DNA of 64,000 nucleotides, from positions 310,001 to 374,000 of the forward strand of contig JAPEUQ010000023.1 of NCBI GenBank assembly GCA_027946365.1, in the 5' to 3' direction. The notes beneath the pieces were generated by a model. That model saw nothing but the letters and a program-made list of their open reading frames with translations, had not been told where the DNA came from and did no database searches. A program made the position numbers and the translations under genes. The stretch comes from Kalmusia sp. IMI 367209 (taxonomy: Eukaryota; Ascomycota; Dothideomycetes; Pleosporales; Didymosphaeriaceae). Numbering within the stretch: position 1 is the first letter of the stretch; each line of letters starts with the position of its first letter. Below are positions 27,765 to 44,332 of this stretch, in pieces.

Positions 27765-28224
27765 TCGCACGGTCATTTTCCCCTCCTTCGCGCCAGTAAC
27801 GATGCGGCAAAGCAGCCTACGCGGTTATCTATCTCTCATTCGCGTTAGTAAACCTACGTGGTTAAGAAGAATATAGCAAAGTATTGCGTACGGTCGTTTA
27901 CCCCTCTTTTACGCTACTTTAACGCGGTGTTAAGTCCCTAGTAAGAGGCCTCCATATTGAATGCAGTCATATCGCTCGATAAGGCATAGCTAAAAAAAAA
28001 GCTCCTACAGAATGCGCATACGTACCTGTAGCGGTGCTGCTAATATGGGTTACGCACGGATTAGCTTATACCTTTTAGCGTAGAGTTCATCCTAAAGCAT
28101 ACCTAGAGTAGTTGCTTTCTAGTTTATAAGTCCATGAATGAGGGGCAAAACTTGGTCTGCTCGATTGTGGCTCTCAGCCCATAAAAAAAATAGTAGCTGA
28201 ATGGGAGACAGATGAGAAGAAAAA
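27765..28224. repeat. Dispersed repeat R3, copy 3
   Basis: This is the R3 copy with relatively little RIP: TCCCCTCCTTCGCGCCAGTA, GCGGTTATCTATCTCTCATT, TCCCTAGTAAGAGGCCTCC, GCACGGATTAGCTTATACC, then CTCGATTGTGGCTCTCAGCC and an A-run. It leads directly into a truncated 5S sequence. It aligns by eye with 34955-35597. Confidence 0.7.
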
Positions 28225-39864: not shown

Positions 39865-40691
39865 GACGATGGAGACCTGCCCCTCTGGACGTTATGTAGA
39901 GAACTGAAACTCTGAACGGTGGATCGATTGAATAAAAAACGAAGAGCTAAGTCAAGAAACGAGTAGTTGTAATAACAGTAGTAAAAGAGTGACAATGCTT
40001 CGATCACACGATTCGATACCACATCAACAGGAAGTGTCCTTCGCCGAGCCGACCAGATATTTACGTCGCATCAGACTGTACCGCTGAATTATATTCCCGA
40101 AATTGCATTGAATTGCCTACGCTAGCGATCCCGATGTTTCAGGCGACCTTCTTACCCACCATTCACCGATGTTCGTTGTCCGGAGTTTAGAGCCCATGAG
40201 CAGGGCAGTCAACGCAGCTTAATCCGTAACAAACTAGGTCCGAGTAAAGTAGCCCGCGCGGTTATCTATCTCTCATTCGCGCCAGTAAACCTGCGTGGTC
40301 AAGAAGAATGCAGCAAAGTATCCCGTACGCGTGCCTGTTGCCTCATTGCCAGCCCATGCTCATTGCCTACCCTCCTTGCTCGCCTGCTTTCCTTGCTCGC
40401 CTGCCCTCCTCGCCCATCTTCCTCCCTCTCCCTCCTCGCTCGCCTGCACTACTTCGTCTGCCTTGTTTACCTATCTATTTAGTCACGTCGCTAGCTATGA
40501 ATAATCTACGGGACGTGCTGACGGCTACCTGGGTGAGGACGAGCACGGTCTCCTGCATCTAGGGTAGTAGGTGAGGTAAGTAAGCTCTATTTCAGCTACA
40601 CTAAGATGAGGATACAAGAGGCAGCTACGCCTGAACGCGTAATCGCGCCTAAGCGCGAGGTCATGTGACCTGGCGTGCCAGGCCGTCACAG
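39865..40691. other. Intergenic region with an R3 fragment
   Basis: This is the promoter side of the secreted-protein gene. At 40250-40332 there is a short, little-mutated R3 fragment (GCGGTTATCTATCTCTCATT, then GCAGCAAAGTATCCCGTACG). A CTCGCCTGC-rich pyrimidine tract with repeated CTTGCTCGCCTGC/CCTCCTCGC lies at 40365-40455. Confidence 0.5.
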
Positions 40692-40811
40692 AGCATACAG
40701 CTCAGCCAACTGGTCAAAAAGCCAAGCCTACTGGTAGGGTCCGAGCTTCCTCGTGCCAAGCAGTAGGCTTGGCTTTCAAATTAACTAACCAGTCAGCTGA
40801 GCTTTACTAAT
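40692..40811 (+). repeat. Left terminal inverted repeat, internally palindromic
   Basis: 120 bp matching the reverse complement of 44202-44321. It is itself a foldback: AGCTCAGCCAACTGGT with AAAAGCCAAGCCTACT at its start is mirrored by AGTAGGCTTGGCTTT and ACCAGTCAGCTGAGCT at its end. Each TIR could therefore form its own hairpin. Confidence 0.85.
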
Positions 40812-40891
40812 CACGAGTCTTATGTAAAATACAAAAAAACAAGAGGATATAAATATATTCTTAGCGTATTTATATCCTATTCATCTCCTAA

Positions 40892-43800
40892 TTATAAACG
40901 CCTCCGTCTCTTAAGTAAATCTAGCTCCTTTTCCTTAATAGCTTACTACTCTACCTTTAGCTTAGTTTCTAATAGTTCTAATTTAATCTACTACCTTCGC
41001 TGATCTATTTCTTGCTGAGAAAATTGCCCAATAGTCCTAATAGAACATATTAGTAATATGTTCTAAACGGATTATAGAATATTTATAAGATATACCTAGT
41101 AGATGGCCTTTATAAGCTAGATCTTAAAGTTAAACTTTCTCGTAAGTTTTGCCGTAAGCCCCTACGCCGAATAATACCACTTAAGGATGCTCTAATAAGA
41201 AAAGAGTTAGGGTCAACAAAATTCTTAGGCTGTTCCTTAATAGCTAAAGTACGACGCTATTCTAAAATGTATTAAAAACACGTTTAGATCCTGTTTAGAA
41301 TGTTATAAAGTATTACCTACTTTCATAAGTATATAACTACTAAAATCAAGCTACTAGAGATGTATCTCTATCTATAAGATACTCTAAAGCTCTGGCGAGC
41401 ATTATACTAATCTACATTACGCCTATTAAGCCTTTCACCACTAGAACACCTTAGGAACATGCTTAGAACGAGTTAGGAATATCTTAAGAACTTACTTTAA
41501 GATTATAGCTAGTATCCTTTGCTTTTTACTAGTTATATTTGACTTATTTATACTTTACTTAACAGTATTCGTATAATGCCGTAACGTAGTAAAGATAATA
41601 GGGTTAATTAATAAATAAGCCTCATTAAGCCCACCTGTAATAAGTGGATGGCGCTTATATCTAACCTATTCTTTAATAGGAGCTTCTTCATACTCTATAA
41701 CGTGTTAGTAAGATGTTACAAATATATTCTAAATATAATAAATACTAATTAAAAGATCGCAAAGCTAATTATACTTAATAGTAGTTTAATAGATTAATAA
41801 AGATTTTATACGTAACTATAACTTATAGTTTATAGATACTAGAGTAGTTATACTTCTAAAGAAGTATATAAGATAGAATACTACTATCTTTTGTATATGC
41901 TATGCTAGTGGTCTAGCTTGTGGATTGATAGAATGGAGATATTACCTAAATCCTAGGAATATACTTAGAACATGTTTTGAATATGTTATGGCAGCTTACC
42001 TAGAAATTAGCCGCCATGCATATCAAGGGTAATTAACGTAAACGAACAATCTTCGCTAAAGGTAATATAGGACTAGGATAGCTTCTTATCCAACACGTTC
42101 TCAACGTGTTTGAAAAGCCTTTGGAATACCTTGAAATAGCTTTCTTAGTCCTGTTTCTCGATATATACTCTCGCGAGGGTGATAACTATTTAAGTCAATA
42201 ACCTATTCTGAACGTGTTCCAGACGTGTTTACTTTTACCATATTCCCTAAGGAATTTTCTAATTATCATTTCGTTCAGATTTCGCTGCTTAATTCGTTTA
42301 AAAGAGACATCAACTTCAAAATTCTCTTATATTAATAGAATCTAAGCTTGTCCTTTAGTAAAGCATATAATCTAAATCCCAGAGGTATTATTATATATAC
42401 CTTAGATATATCACTATATAATTACGTTAGTAACACCTTTGTAACGCGTTTAGAATACGTTTATATATATCTACTACCGTCCTATGTCTTTGCTCATATT
42501 TAAATACTACGCCTATAAAATCTCGTCCTTAAGGCTAATAGATAATTCGCTATTTACGTATAATTACTAATATTCGATTAAGGTTATTAAACGAAATATA
42601 GAGATCTTATAATATTTAAATATTATTCTGTTGATAGTATTGCTGAAGCAAGGGGCTCCGAAGAAATATACCTAGGGAAGGTTATTAACACGTTATAAAT
42701 GGCTTTTAAACATGTTCTAAACCTGTTGTCAACCCTAGGTCTCTTATAGATTTTATAAGCTCTATAATCTTATGGATAATAGATCCTGGCGGCTTATTTA
42801 GTGGCGGTGGTGGGTGTGTATGCTCTCCAATTAATATTAAAAGGATATATAGTATAGTAAGAAGGTCCTTAGGTATAAATAAATAGAAGACTATATTATA
42901 GGTTTTTATAAGAAGTTTTCTAGGGCCTTATAGATGATTAACACCTGTTAAATAGTTTAGAACACGTTTAAAACTTATTTTAAATAGTTTACTATAATTC
43001 TTTCTTCGACAGCTTCGTTGTTCTGTTATATAATAGCTAGTTAAAGAAGTAGTACTTTTCTTTATAGAGAATAGCAGTTCTTCTAGATAAGATATATTAT
43101 ATTTTATAATAGAGGATAATAGTTTTAGTAAATGAGGGTTCTTTGCTGTATCATATAATTCTCACAGCATAAGAAATACTAGGGTTAGTTATTAATATCC
43201 TAAGACGTTAGGAACGTGTTTATATTATGTTTATAATATAATTTTAAGGTAGTTATCTACATTATACCTTACTTTTCATAAACATAGTATATATATAGGT
43301 TATTAGTCTATATAGGTAATTCCTTGCTAGAATCGTCTTTGAAGACTTATGAATAGACTATTTATAGTAAGTATATTTATAACATATTTTAAATATGTTA
43401 TGAACGCGTTTATATCTTAGTAGATTAGGTTAGGATCTAAGTAATTAATAACCTACCGAAGCTCTTAGATTAATCTCTAGATAGAATTCTCTACTTTAGT
43501 ATATATTAACGTTTATAAGGTATTATGAATATATTCACAATATAATATACCTATATAACGTAACTTCTATTTCGTTCCTTAGGCGTCATTTAAGAAAGGT
43601 GAGGTTACTATAGTTACTTAATGGATTTGGCTCCAGCTATATTGCACCTATTAAAGCGCAATCATATTAGTATATATATAGAATACCTTATAAACATCTT
43701 AATAACGTATTTTCGTATAGTAGACGCTACTTTGTATAGGATTATGTTGAGAACATGTTAGGAACTACTTACTAATACCTGTTTAAGATCGAGGATATCA

Positions 43801-44156
43801 GTTATATTTATATAATATATATAGCCATCCTTATGTGTTTGTAGATATTCTAGTATATATAAAGCAAATTCGAGCTCTACAGTAATAAGGGGCTAAACTA
43901 TACTATAGTAAGTATAATAGGCGCCGTAGGTTCCTCCTAAAAGAATGTTAACGTGTTATAAACATATTTAGAATATTATAGTTTTAATCTACCTCTTTCT
44001 CTAATATAATAGTATTTGACTCTTTAATCTCTAGGTTAACTTACTGTAAAATACTATCCTCAATATTAGGTAGCTCGGAGATATCTATTTAGTAAGGAAT
44101 AGCCTTAGAACATGTTTAGAATATATTACCATAGGTTGCGATATGTAAAGAATCAT
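40892..44156 (-). pseudogene. RIP-killed multi-exon transposase-like gene of the MULE-like element
   Basis: Reading the minus strand, exons of about 60-200 bp alternate with intron-like segments of about 37-65 bp. Coding stretches include ISELPNIEDSILQ, LEFALYILEYLQTHKDG, QENFEVDVSFKRIK (an E-x-D region resembling the first catalytic segment of MULE DDE transposases), YLHSINPQARPLA, GLNEAYLLINPIIFTTLRHY, EQPKNFVDPNSFLIRAS and a charged end IKEKELDLLKRRRL before TAA at 40892-40894. Stops inside exons are almost all TAG or TAA where CAG or CAA would fit, the expected effect of RIP on Gln codons. The start is not fixed: the ATG at 44156 does not join the next exon in frame. The MULE assignment rests on TSD, TIR and these motifs. 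Confidence 0.7.
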
Positions 44157-44201
44157 AAAATATAAGGGTAAAAGAATACTATTATAAAGTGAAAATTTTT
44201 T

Positions 44202-44321
44202 ATTAGTAAAGCTCAGCCGACTAGTTGATTAATTTAAAAGCTAAGTCTACTGCTTAGCACGAGGAAGCTCGGACCCCACTAGTAGGCTTGGCTTTTTGAC
44301 CAGTCGGCTGAGCTGTATCCT
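44202..44321 (-). repeat. Right terminal inverted repeat
   Basis: 120 bp, inverted copy of 40692-40811 with about ten transitions (for example GGCTTGGC to GACTTAGC on the matched strand), consistent with RIP. It ends in GGCTGAGCTGTATCCT next to the right target duplication. Confidence 0.85.
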
Positions 44322-44332
44322 GGCCGTCACAG

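Follow-up and report, generated by a model that had tools for sequence, protein, structure and literature searches.

The introns of a single transposon gene in a dothideomycete fungus resemble one another, and this raises the question of what they share and how they came to share it. The gene belongs to a Mutator-like DNA transposon family (M1), one copy of which lies in a 64,000-nt stretch of Kalmusia sp. IMI 367209 (assembly GCA_027946365.1, contig JAPEUQ010000023.1, positions 310,001 to 374,000), hereafter the window. Unrelated introns are expected to have only splice signals in common. A sequence-only reading of the window had described minus-strand exons decayed by repeat-induced point mutation (RIP) alternating with GT...AG segments that share AACRYGTT and TTCTAA units, and our analysis confirmed this description. 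It had also proposed that the gene was seeded by one introner-like family of introns, and here our results diverge from it. The introns are probably alike through an AAC triplet placed every 11 bases, not through the copying of an intron into the gene.

We drew the intron map from a manual protein alignment of M1 with two related families (M2 and M3), found by searching the fungus's own genome with the M1 read-through protein; splicing was read from sequence alone. The map places 13 introns in the M1 gene (lettered A-E and G-N), each with GT-AG ends in at least one copy (Table 1). Unless stated, copy C26 supplied the M1 introns, L078, the GC-richest M3 copy, the M3 introns, and L073 and L074 the M2 introns. 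Fourteen of the 17 intron-like segments listed in the sequence-only reading fall in these 13 introns, two (42085-42135 and 43510-43560) align with M2 and M3 as exons, and one (44085-44130) is counted neither as intron nor as exon in the revised map. The 125 nt of intron M may be two introns flanking a micro-exon. Intron L is a likely call: all four M3 copies have stops in the corresponding GT-AG segment, and the corresponding 45-nt GT-AG segment of M2 is open in frame, which makes the call less sure there. No counterpart of intron A was seen in the alignment with M2.

The sequence sharing among these introns is real. In the window copy, AACRYGTT occurs 11 times in 758 bp of intron (10 of the 13 introns) versus twice in 2464 bp of exon, and TTCYTAA 11 times in introns versus once in exons; the rest of the window has two AACRYGTT in 60,201 bp. 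The exons had been described as free of the units, which is nearly right, as both exonic occurrences of AACRYGTT lie in the conserved exon at 42085-42135. The case for a shared family had been made to depend on a profile that scores better than shuffled sequence, and such a profile emerged from an unsupervised, leave-one-out motif of width 11 built from 12 C26 introns (intron L was still counted as exon in this test and in the pairwise comparison). Scored without its first six and last three bases, the held-out intron was matched by no more than 4 of 300 dinucleotide shuffles in 10 of 12 cases; the counts for N, M, K, J, I, H, G, E, D, C, B and A were 1, 0, 0, 3, 4, 12, 31, 0, 0, 0, 0 and 0. 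Further, 71% of 66 M1 intron pairs exceeded the shuffled 95th percentile in local alignment, as did 60% of 45 M2 pairs and 27% of 45 M3 pairs, versus 5.6% of 396 pairs of exon segments.

What the introns share sits on a fixed pitch. Pairs of AAYNNNTT in the M1 introns of C26 lie 11 nt apart in 12 cases, 22 nt apart in 4 and 30 nt apart in one, so the unit spacing, previously read as 11-16 bp, is 11. Self-identity at a lag of 11 nt rose above shuffles with z scores of 12.6 in the 13 M1 introns, 6.9 in 11 M3 introns and 7.7 in 11 introns of the first M2 gene; at lag 22 the values were 5.8, 3.3 and 5.5. The five introns of a second M2 gene gave 8.7 and 6.8 at the two lags. The transposase exons scored 1.2 (M1), 0.4 (M3) and 1.6 (M2) at lag 11. 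We also compared the register of the AAC triplets with the same number of AAC placed randomly (2000 draws). Pairs at multiples of 11 numbered 18 in M1 (2.4 expected, maximum 8), 8 in M3 (0.6 expected, maximum 5), 8 in M2 (1.1 expected, maximum 6) and 10 in the second M2 gene (1.0 expected, maximum 6). Across 41 introns, AAC was the most 11-periodic of the 64 triplets, with 27 pairs at lag 11, where the eight neighbouring lags (7-10 and 12-15) average 0.8, and GTT was the second (20 pairs versus a mean of 0.6).

The M1 unit is mostly NNN-AAC-RYG-TT with mixed spacer letters, and its core AACRYGTT is a near-palindrome; units in the second M2 gene are CAACCCNTT-like. When 26 M1 units were aligned on their in-register AAC, which is given by construction, the two T positions were kept in 22 and 25 units. 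The same positions were kept in 15 and 14 of 15 M3 units and, less well, in 6 and 9 of 14 M2 units. The repeated unit would accordingly be described as an AAC, usually followed by NNNTT, in 11-bp phase; in M1 it often takes the form AACRYGTT with three free spacer letters.

The families differ in their exposure to RIP, and this bears on whether the periodicity could be an artefact of RIP and AT-richness. RIP has hit all ten long M1 copies hard: 2020 of the 2045 minority changes among them are transitions. The four M3 copies (L039, L040, L078 and L079) are 90-92% identical and also RIPed. M2, however, comprises five un-RIPed copies (L073-L077) that are 99.2-99.6% identical to one another, in fetched loci of 46-48% GC. 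Because M2 shows the same pitch, RIP is not its source; RIPed exons lack the pitch that introns of the same copies have, and shuffles and exon windows mostly fail to reproduce it. We thus consider the artefact refuted, with virtually no probability left to it. Additional M2-like copies were found at C12, C1 and C28; the one at C28 is rich in A and T and, by eye, RIPed. M4, a fourth family with four copies, is RIPed too and weakly related (29% identity over 140 residues, E 2.5e-4), and its units are spaced mainly 11 or 22 nt apart on both strands.

A single mobile intron inserted repeatedly into the gene could also produce introns that align with one another as often as those of M1 do. The positions of the introns tell otherwise. 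Eleven of them (M, L, K, J, I, H, G, E, D, C and B) are common to M1, M2 and M3 in the manual alignment, and the M1, M2 and M3 proteins are only some 25-50% identical, varying by block. These introns therefore look old, and recent seeding of the gene with introns is probably not what happened. Similarity also hardly follows orthology and sits in the 11-nt unit: mean local scores at the same versus different positions were 25.2 and 23.2 (M1 with M3), 19.0 and 17.6 (M1 with M2) and 16.8 and 16.5 (M3 with M2). Some orthologous memory remains, as indicated by single high-scoring orthologous pairs (M, 48, and J, 42, in M1 with M3; E, 36, in M1 with M2). The motif trained on M1 introns passed the exon 95th percentile in 5 of 10 M2 and 7 of 10 M3 introns, although taking the best of several windows per intron favours introns in this comparison. 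When motifs were sought de novo in the M2 introns, a run of C emerged but no clear motif.

The M1 introns also lack two marks of introner-like elements (ILEs). We did not find near-identical introns at new positions among them. Fungal ILEs show excess RNA secondary structure, whereas folding of the 13 M1 introns relative to dinucleotide shuffles gave a mean z of 0.03 (-0.10 and -0.15 in the other sets), with the lowest values in introns L (-2.3) and K (-2.7). RNA structure as the feature common to the introns was rejected, as there is no mean folding excess.

A search of the genome for two GTTCTAA 11 bases apart, with at most one mismatch, returned 47 places versus 24 for the reversed control. 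M1 copies account for 14 of the 47, and 4 fall in M3 copies or just past them; 8 belong to M4 or sit no more than 130 bp from the aligned part of its copies, 11 are one repeat, TTTCTAAAATAGTTCTAA, unrelated to the transposon families, and 10 were elsewhere. An exact GTTCTAA-N4-GTTCTAA outside known copies lies at C7:200048-200065, and nine places with one mismatch are likewise outside. This distribution, mostly in the transposon families or one repeat, adds to the evidence against a mobile intron, an explanation that we regard as largely refuted and very improbable.

The claim that no other gene in the window has such introns agrees with our results as far as they go: 10 of the 11 44-mers rich in lag-11 matches lie inside the element. 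The lone 44-mer of this kind outside it is at window position 27890. The control from host introns is small and consists of introns predicted in the window, 10 by one predictor and 16, 12 or 7 by a second predictor at three settings; the second gave lag-11 z scores of 1.0, 1.5 and 1.0. No AAC pairs at multiples of 11 were present in 12 predicted host introns, and no AACRYGTT in 10. Outside the element, the window has 8 AAC pairs at lag 11, an ordinary number among lags 7-15 (3-13).

The pitch could instead be the neutral remnant of an ancestral 11-bp minisatellite that spread through the non-coding gaps and is still decaying. Adjacent units are sometimes near-identical, as in TACTAACTAGT TACTAACTAGA of M2 intron K and the CAACCCGTTGC-like units of intron g3 in the second M2 gene, and coding constraint would explain why the exons are free of the minisatellite. 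Plain decay would, however, hit every letter alike, yet TT is kept and the three spacer letters are mixed. The pitch has also been retained while the proteins of the families diverged strongly. Furthermore, intron lengths change by 1-3 bp only, and never by 11 bp, among the ten M1 copies, and the listed variants of M2 introns include no 11-bp change. A neutral remnant is the strongest rival to the reading that we prefer, but we judge it rather unlikely. The sequence-only reading had offered a related alternative, that a tandem unit was copied into each intron. The tandem unit itself stands, with its 11-nt pitch, but its restriction to introns probably does not, as the unit is also found outside recognised introns.

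The array often reaches the branch site. In 23 of 40 introns, including 8 of the 13 in M1, an AAC stands 8-13 nt ahead of the terminal AG. When the M2 5' intron was included (41 introns), 16 of 24 introns with an AAC at the branch position had another AAC in 11-nt register upstream of it, versus 2.8 expected. The branch AAC thus stands in the register of the array, which suggests that the branch site is usually one array unit adapted to YTAAC; where the array extends that far, one in-register unit would have been turned into this form. These observations could mean that the units are branch-site modules (YUAAC plus UU), serial sites for the branch-point-binding protein. TACTAAC occurs twice in M2 intron K, 11 nt apart, and the protein SF1 is bound by tandem UACUAAC repeats in Gomafu RNA (PMC3116199). 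Most upstream units do not appear to be branch sites, however, because YT precedes only 8 of 57 upstream AAC (5 of 43 in register) versus 18 of 23 at the branch position (Fisher p 7.5e-8). GTT-oriented arrays in some M2 introns, one of them a 5' intron, and arrays outside recognised introns also argue against a splicing device, which we consider improbable.

The non-intronic arrays are clearest in M2, where pairs of AAC or GTT at lag 11 reach 16.3 per kb in introns (15 in 919 bp) versus 1.5 per kb in exons (5 in 3326 bp). The spacer between the two M2 genes is almost as rich as the introns (13.1 per kb, 5 in 382 bp; lag-11 z 3.7), and the M2 5' region (430 bp, one intron included) has a lag-11 z of 4.5. 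The unit was also read by eye in both untranslated regions (UTRs) of M1, with a lag-11 z of 3.2 in the 3' UTR. A role at the DNA level is likelier because the unit and pitch are kept while the spacers vary and because GTT-oriented and non-intronic arrays exist; contacts with DNA rather than RNA are also favoured because the introns show no folding excess. We infer that a phased array in the non-coding DNA of the element (introns, tested UTRs and spacer) could have been retained as a surface for multivalent contacts, with a protein or between DNA molecules, at the level of DNA more probably than at that of RNA. We hold this reading with about even confidence.

Several observations weigh against it. 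The arrays are short, with 2-4 units, and their 11-bp pitch differs from the helical repeat of relaxed B-DNA, 10.5 bp. L079, an M3 copy more strongly RIPed than L078, retains no AAC pairs at lag 11, and the exons of the second M2 gene have periodicities of their own, peaking at lags 12, 9, 27 and 6, and none at 11. The first set of 10 host introns had a lag-11 z of 2.9, the top lag of the set. The non-intronic stretches are short as well (382 and 164 bp in M2, 68 and 96 bp in M1), and some of their arrays may be unrecognised UTR introns. The density in the 164-bp 5' non-coding stretch of M2 (12.2 AAC and GTT pairs at lag 11 per kb, 2 in total) comes from a stretch chosen after arrays had been noticed there, the M1 5' UTR alone gave a lag-11 z of 1.3, and the terminal inverted repeat (TIR) carries no array (z -0.8). 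Finally, the M2 sense introns have 10 AAC versus 5 GTT pairs at lag 11, an excess that is unexpected under a purely double-stranded role.

One triplet on an 11-nt pitch, in introns of two different genes and of several diverged families, RIPed and un-RIPed, points either to a sequence-specific factor that reads the array or to a process acting once per 11 bp that shapes non-coding transposon DNA. The latter, if true, bears on homology recognition by intact double helices in fungi that practise RIP. The old intron positions also carry a warning: sharing of intron sequence is, by itself, no evidence of introner gain.

The searches that identified the families covered the genome of the fungus (42.8 Mb in 30 contigs) and recovered about 12 M1 insertions, as ten long copies and short derivatives. 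The nine other long copies are 88-94% identical to the window element, and several long copies are interrupted by later insertions. All ten are broken, every frame being stopped in the exon between introns D and C. We call M1 Mutator-like because its target site duplication (TSD) of 9 bp falls in the 8-11 bp of Mutator-like elements (MULEs), its TIRs are long (about 120 bp) and the residue order D..D..CxxH..E can be read by eye in the protein of its un-RIPed relative M2 (FQIDVSF, TADMDG, CSHH, NHVEQ), an order that we take to be that of MULE DDE transposases. A script found the TSD identical in 9 of the 10 M1 insertions with two ends; the tenth, C25a, matches once its boundary is moved by one base. 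Searched against a large protein set, the M1 read-through protein had 2418 candidates and none at E<=0.001. Pfam returned no family for it and none above the cut-off for the joined M2 protein, and the PF10551 profile had no match in the genome. The second M2 gene is antisense (L074 5113-6321, minus strand) and its spliced reading is a stop-free protein of 306 residues that, by eye, is rich in Cys/His and RGG; the protein looks unrelated to the transposase, and a Pfam scan returned no family above the cut-off.

Table 1. Mapped features of the M1 element in the window, with the M4 copies found elsewhere in the genome. AAC and AAT positions are 0-based within each intron as read in copy C26.
Feature	Position	Strand	Segment in sequence-only reading	Remarks
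Mutator-like DNA transposon, family M1	40691..44322	minus (coding)		3632 bp, RIP-broken copy
CATGTG	40662..40667			one transition from CACGTG; 14 bp outside the TSD
TSD, left	40682..40690			9 bp
TIR, gene 3' end	40691..40811			TIR pair of 120 nt, 90% complementary; end adjusted by one base
3' UTR	40814..40881	minus		C26 has an AAC pair 11 apart
Intron A	41037..41095	minus	41040-41100	AAC/AAT at 22, 33, 44; GT-AG, frame change in M1
Intron B	41262..41320	minus	41255-41315	AAC at 25, 36, 47 (and 16)
Intron C	41441..41495	minus	41436-41494	run of 11-nt units TTCYTAASRYG by eye
Intron D	41695..41745	minus	41697-41748	AAC at 17, 28, 39
Intron E	41953..41999	minus	41950-41998	AAC at 12, 23
Exon	42085..42135	minus	42085-42135	conserved SYFKAFQRLFK...W.HI; gapless alignment with M2 and M3
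Intron G	42186..42232	minus	42200-42240	AAC/AAT at 3, 14, 25
Intron H	42414..42468	minus	42405-42475	AAC/AAT at 7, 18, 40
Intron I	42672..42722	minus	42665-42735	AAC at 6, 28, 39
Intron J	42945..42992	minus	42935-42990	AAC at 13, 24, 35 (and 43)
Intron K	43200..43256	minus	43170-43250	AAC at 25, 36, 47
Intron L	43358..43405	minus	43365-43435	likely
Exon	43510..43560	minus	43510-43560	conserved YIG(V/I)..YYKY(I/L).NTL.T; gapless alignment with M2 and M3 by eye
Intron M	43648..43772	minus	43680-43720 and 43735-43790	position matches intron M of M2 and M3
Intron N	43937..43992	minus	43930-43990	GT-AG, frame change in M1
5' segment	44104..44129	minus	44085-44130	start codon region, 26 nt as read; C26 has an AAC pair 11 apart
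TIR, gene 5' end	44202..44322			paired with 40691..40811
TSD, right	44323..44331			9 bp
M4 copies	L081 1098-3001; C29:705811; C23:954641; C1:74966

The M1 insertions have a second regularity, in their flanks. Of the ten M1 insertions with two ends, 8 have CACGTG nearby and 2, including that of the window, have a hexamer that differs from it by one transition. The hexamer lies 14 bp from the 9-bp duplication in 8 insertions, 13 bp in one and 15 bp in one (C25a, where it was 14 before the boundary shift), five on each side. The three hexamer forms occur 32 times in the 64-kb window, which puts the probability of finding one 13-15 bp away, on either side of a given site, at about 0.003. By eye, the distance of 14 bp also holds at the one-ended insertion C10 and at a short derivative in C5; the M2 and M3 insertions, inspected in the same way, did not have the CACGTG spacing pattern. 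M1 thus looks like an element that integrates at a fixed distance from an E-box, and we can only guess that a bound basic helix-loop-helix factor perhaps guides it there. We found no report of CACGTG-spaced Mutator insertion in the open-licence PubMed Central literature, mostly at the level of titles and abstract openings. Short, internally deleted M1 derivatives with duplications (L038 369-874 and L041 772-878) are non-autonomous and moved with the CACGTG spacing. The M1 pieces at C10:9520-12976 and C6:9822-10002, each close to the start of its contig, have the same 9-bp duplication, ATACGAGCG, and look like parts of a single insertion that a translocation, or a join made in assembly, has separated; the C6 piece is probably the other end of the C10 insertion. 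A 0.5-kb repeat, perhaps a long terminal repeat (L081 600-1098 and some 35 further places), adjoins several M1 pieces and an M4 copy.

Several known systems resemble parts of what we observed. The ascomycete Mutator-like elements include the Hop group and Mutyl, which has an antisense second open reading frame and 9-10-bp duplications (PMC6446971). The families described here resemble them in their long TIRs (51-99 bp in other Ascomycota subgroups), 9-bp duplication and antisense M2 gene; intron arrays are not mentioned in the available text of that report, from which the word intron is absent. The introner-like elements of Dothideomycetes (PMC4457414) and Introners (PMC9860276) are likewise introns that share sequence beyond the splice signals. 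Here, in contrast, the positions are old, the sharing is in an 11-nt unit seen mainly in transposon families and extending outside introns, and there is no folding excess. The sister stwintrons of Hypoxylaceae (PMC8469720) are also related, internally repetitive families of fungal introns, but they have terminal inverted repeats of 45-55 nt and novel positions, whereas the M1 introns occupy old positions and repeat short units every 11 nt. Gomafu RNA likewise repeats branch-site-like words (PMC3116199), but the arrays here hold a fixed pitch and consist mostly of units other than branch sites. In the same literature, covered mostly at the level of titles and abstract openings, we met no account of transposon introns phased at 11 nt.

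A parallel in format is offered by the code read during RIP itself. In earlier experiments, the homology search of Neurospora RIP detected base-pair triplets matched at a periodicity of 11 or 12 bp; in a newer set-up, periods of 8-10 worked and those of 11-15 gave little, which was ascribed to base composition, and GAC was the favoured triplet (PMC4858203). The likeness is that here a single triplet, AAC, recurs every 11 bp, in elements that RIP attacks. The difference is that in those experiments two segments were matched over hundreds of base pairs (PMC4858203), whereas the natural arrays have few units. By analogy, the non-coding DNA of the element could be written in the format that the search reads, one triplet per 11-bp turn, a conjecture to which we assign a low probability. 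If true, any array would pair in register with any other, in the same or a different element. Elements might then use their introns against the recombination-independent sensing of homology, as decoy or mis-register contacts, or sensing in the host might have shaped the introns, which would amount to a natural sequence code for the pairing of intact double helices.

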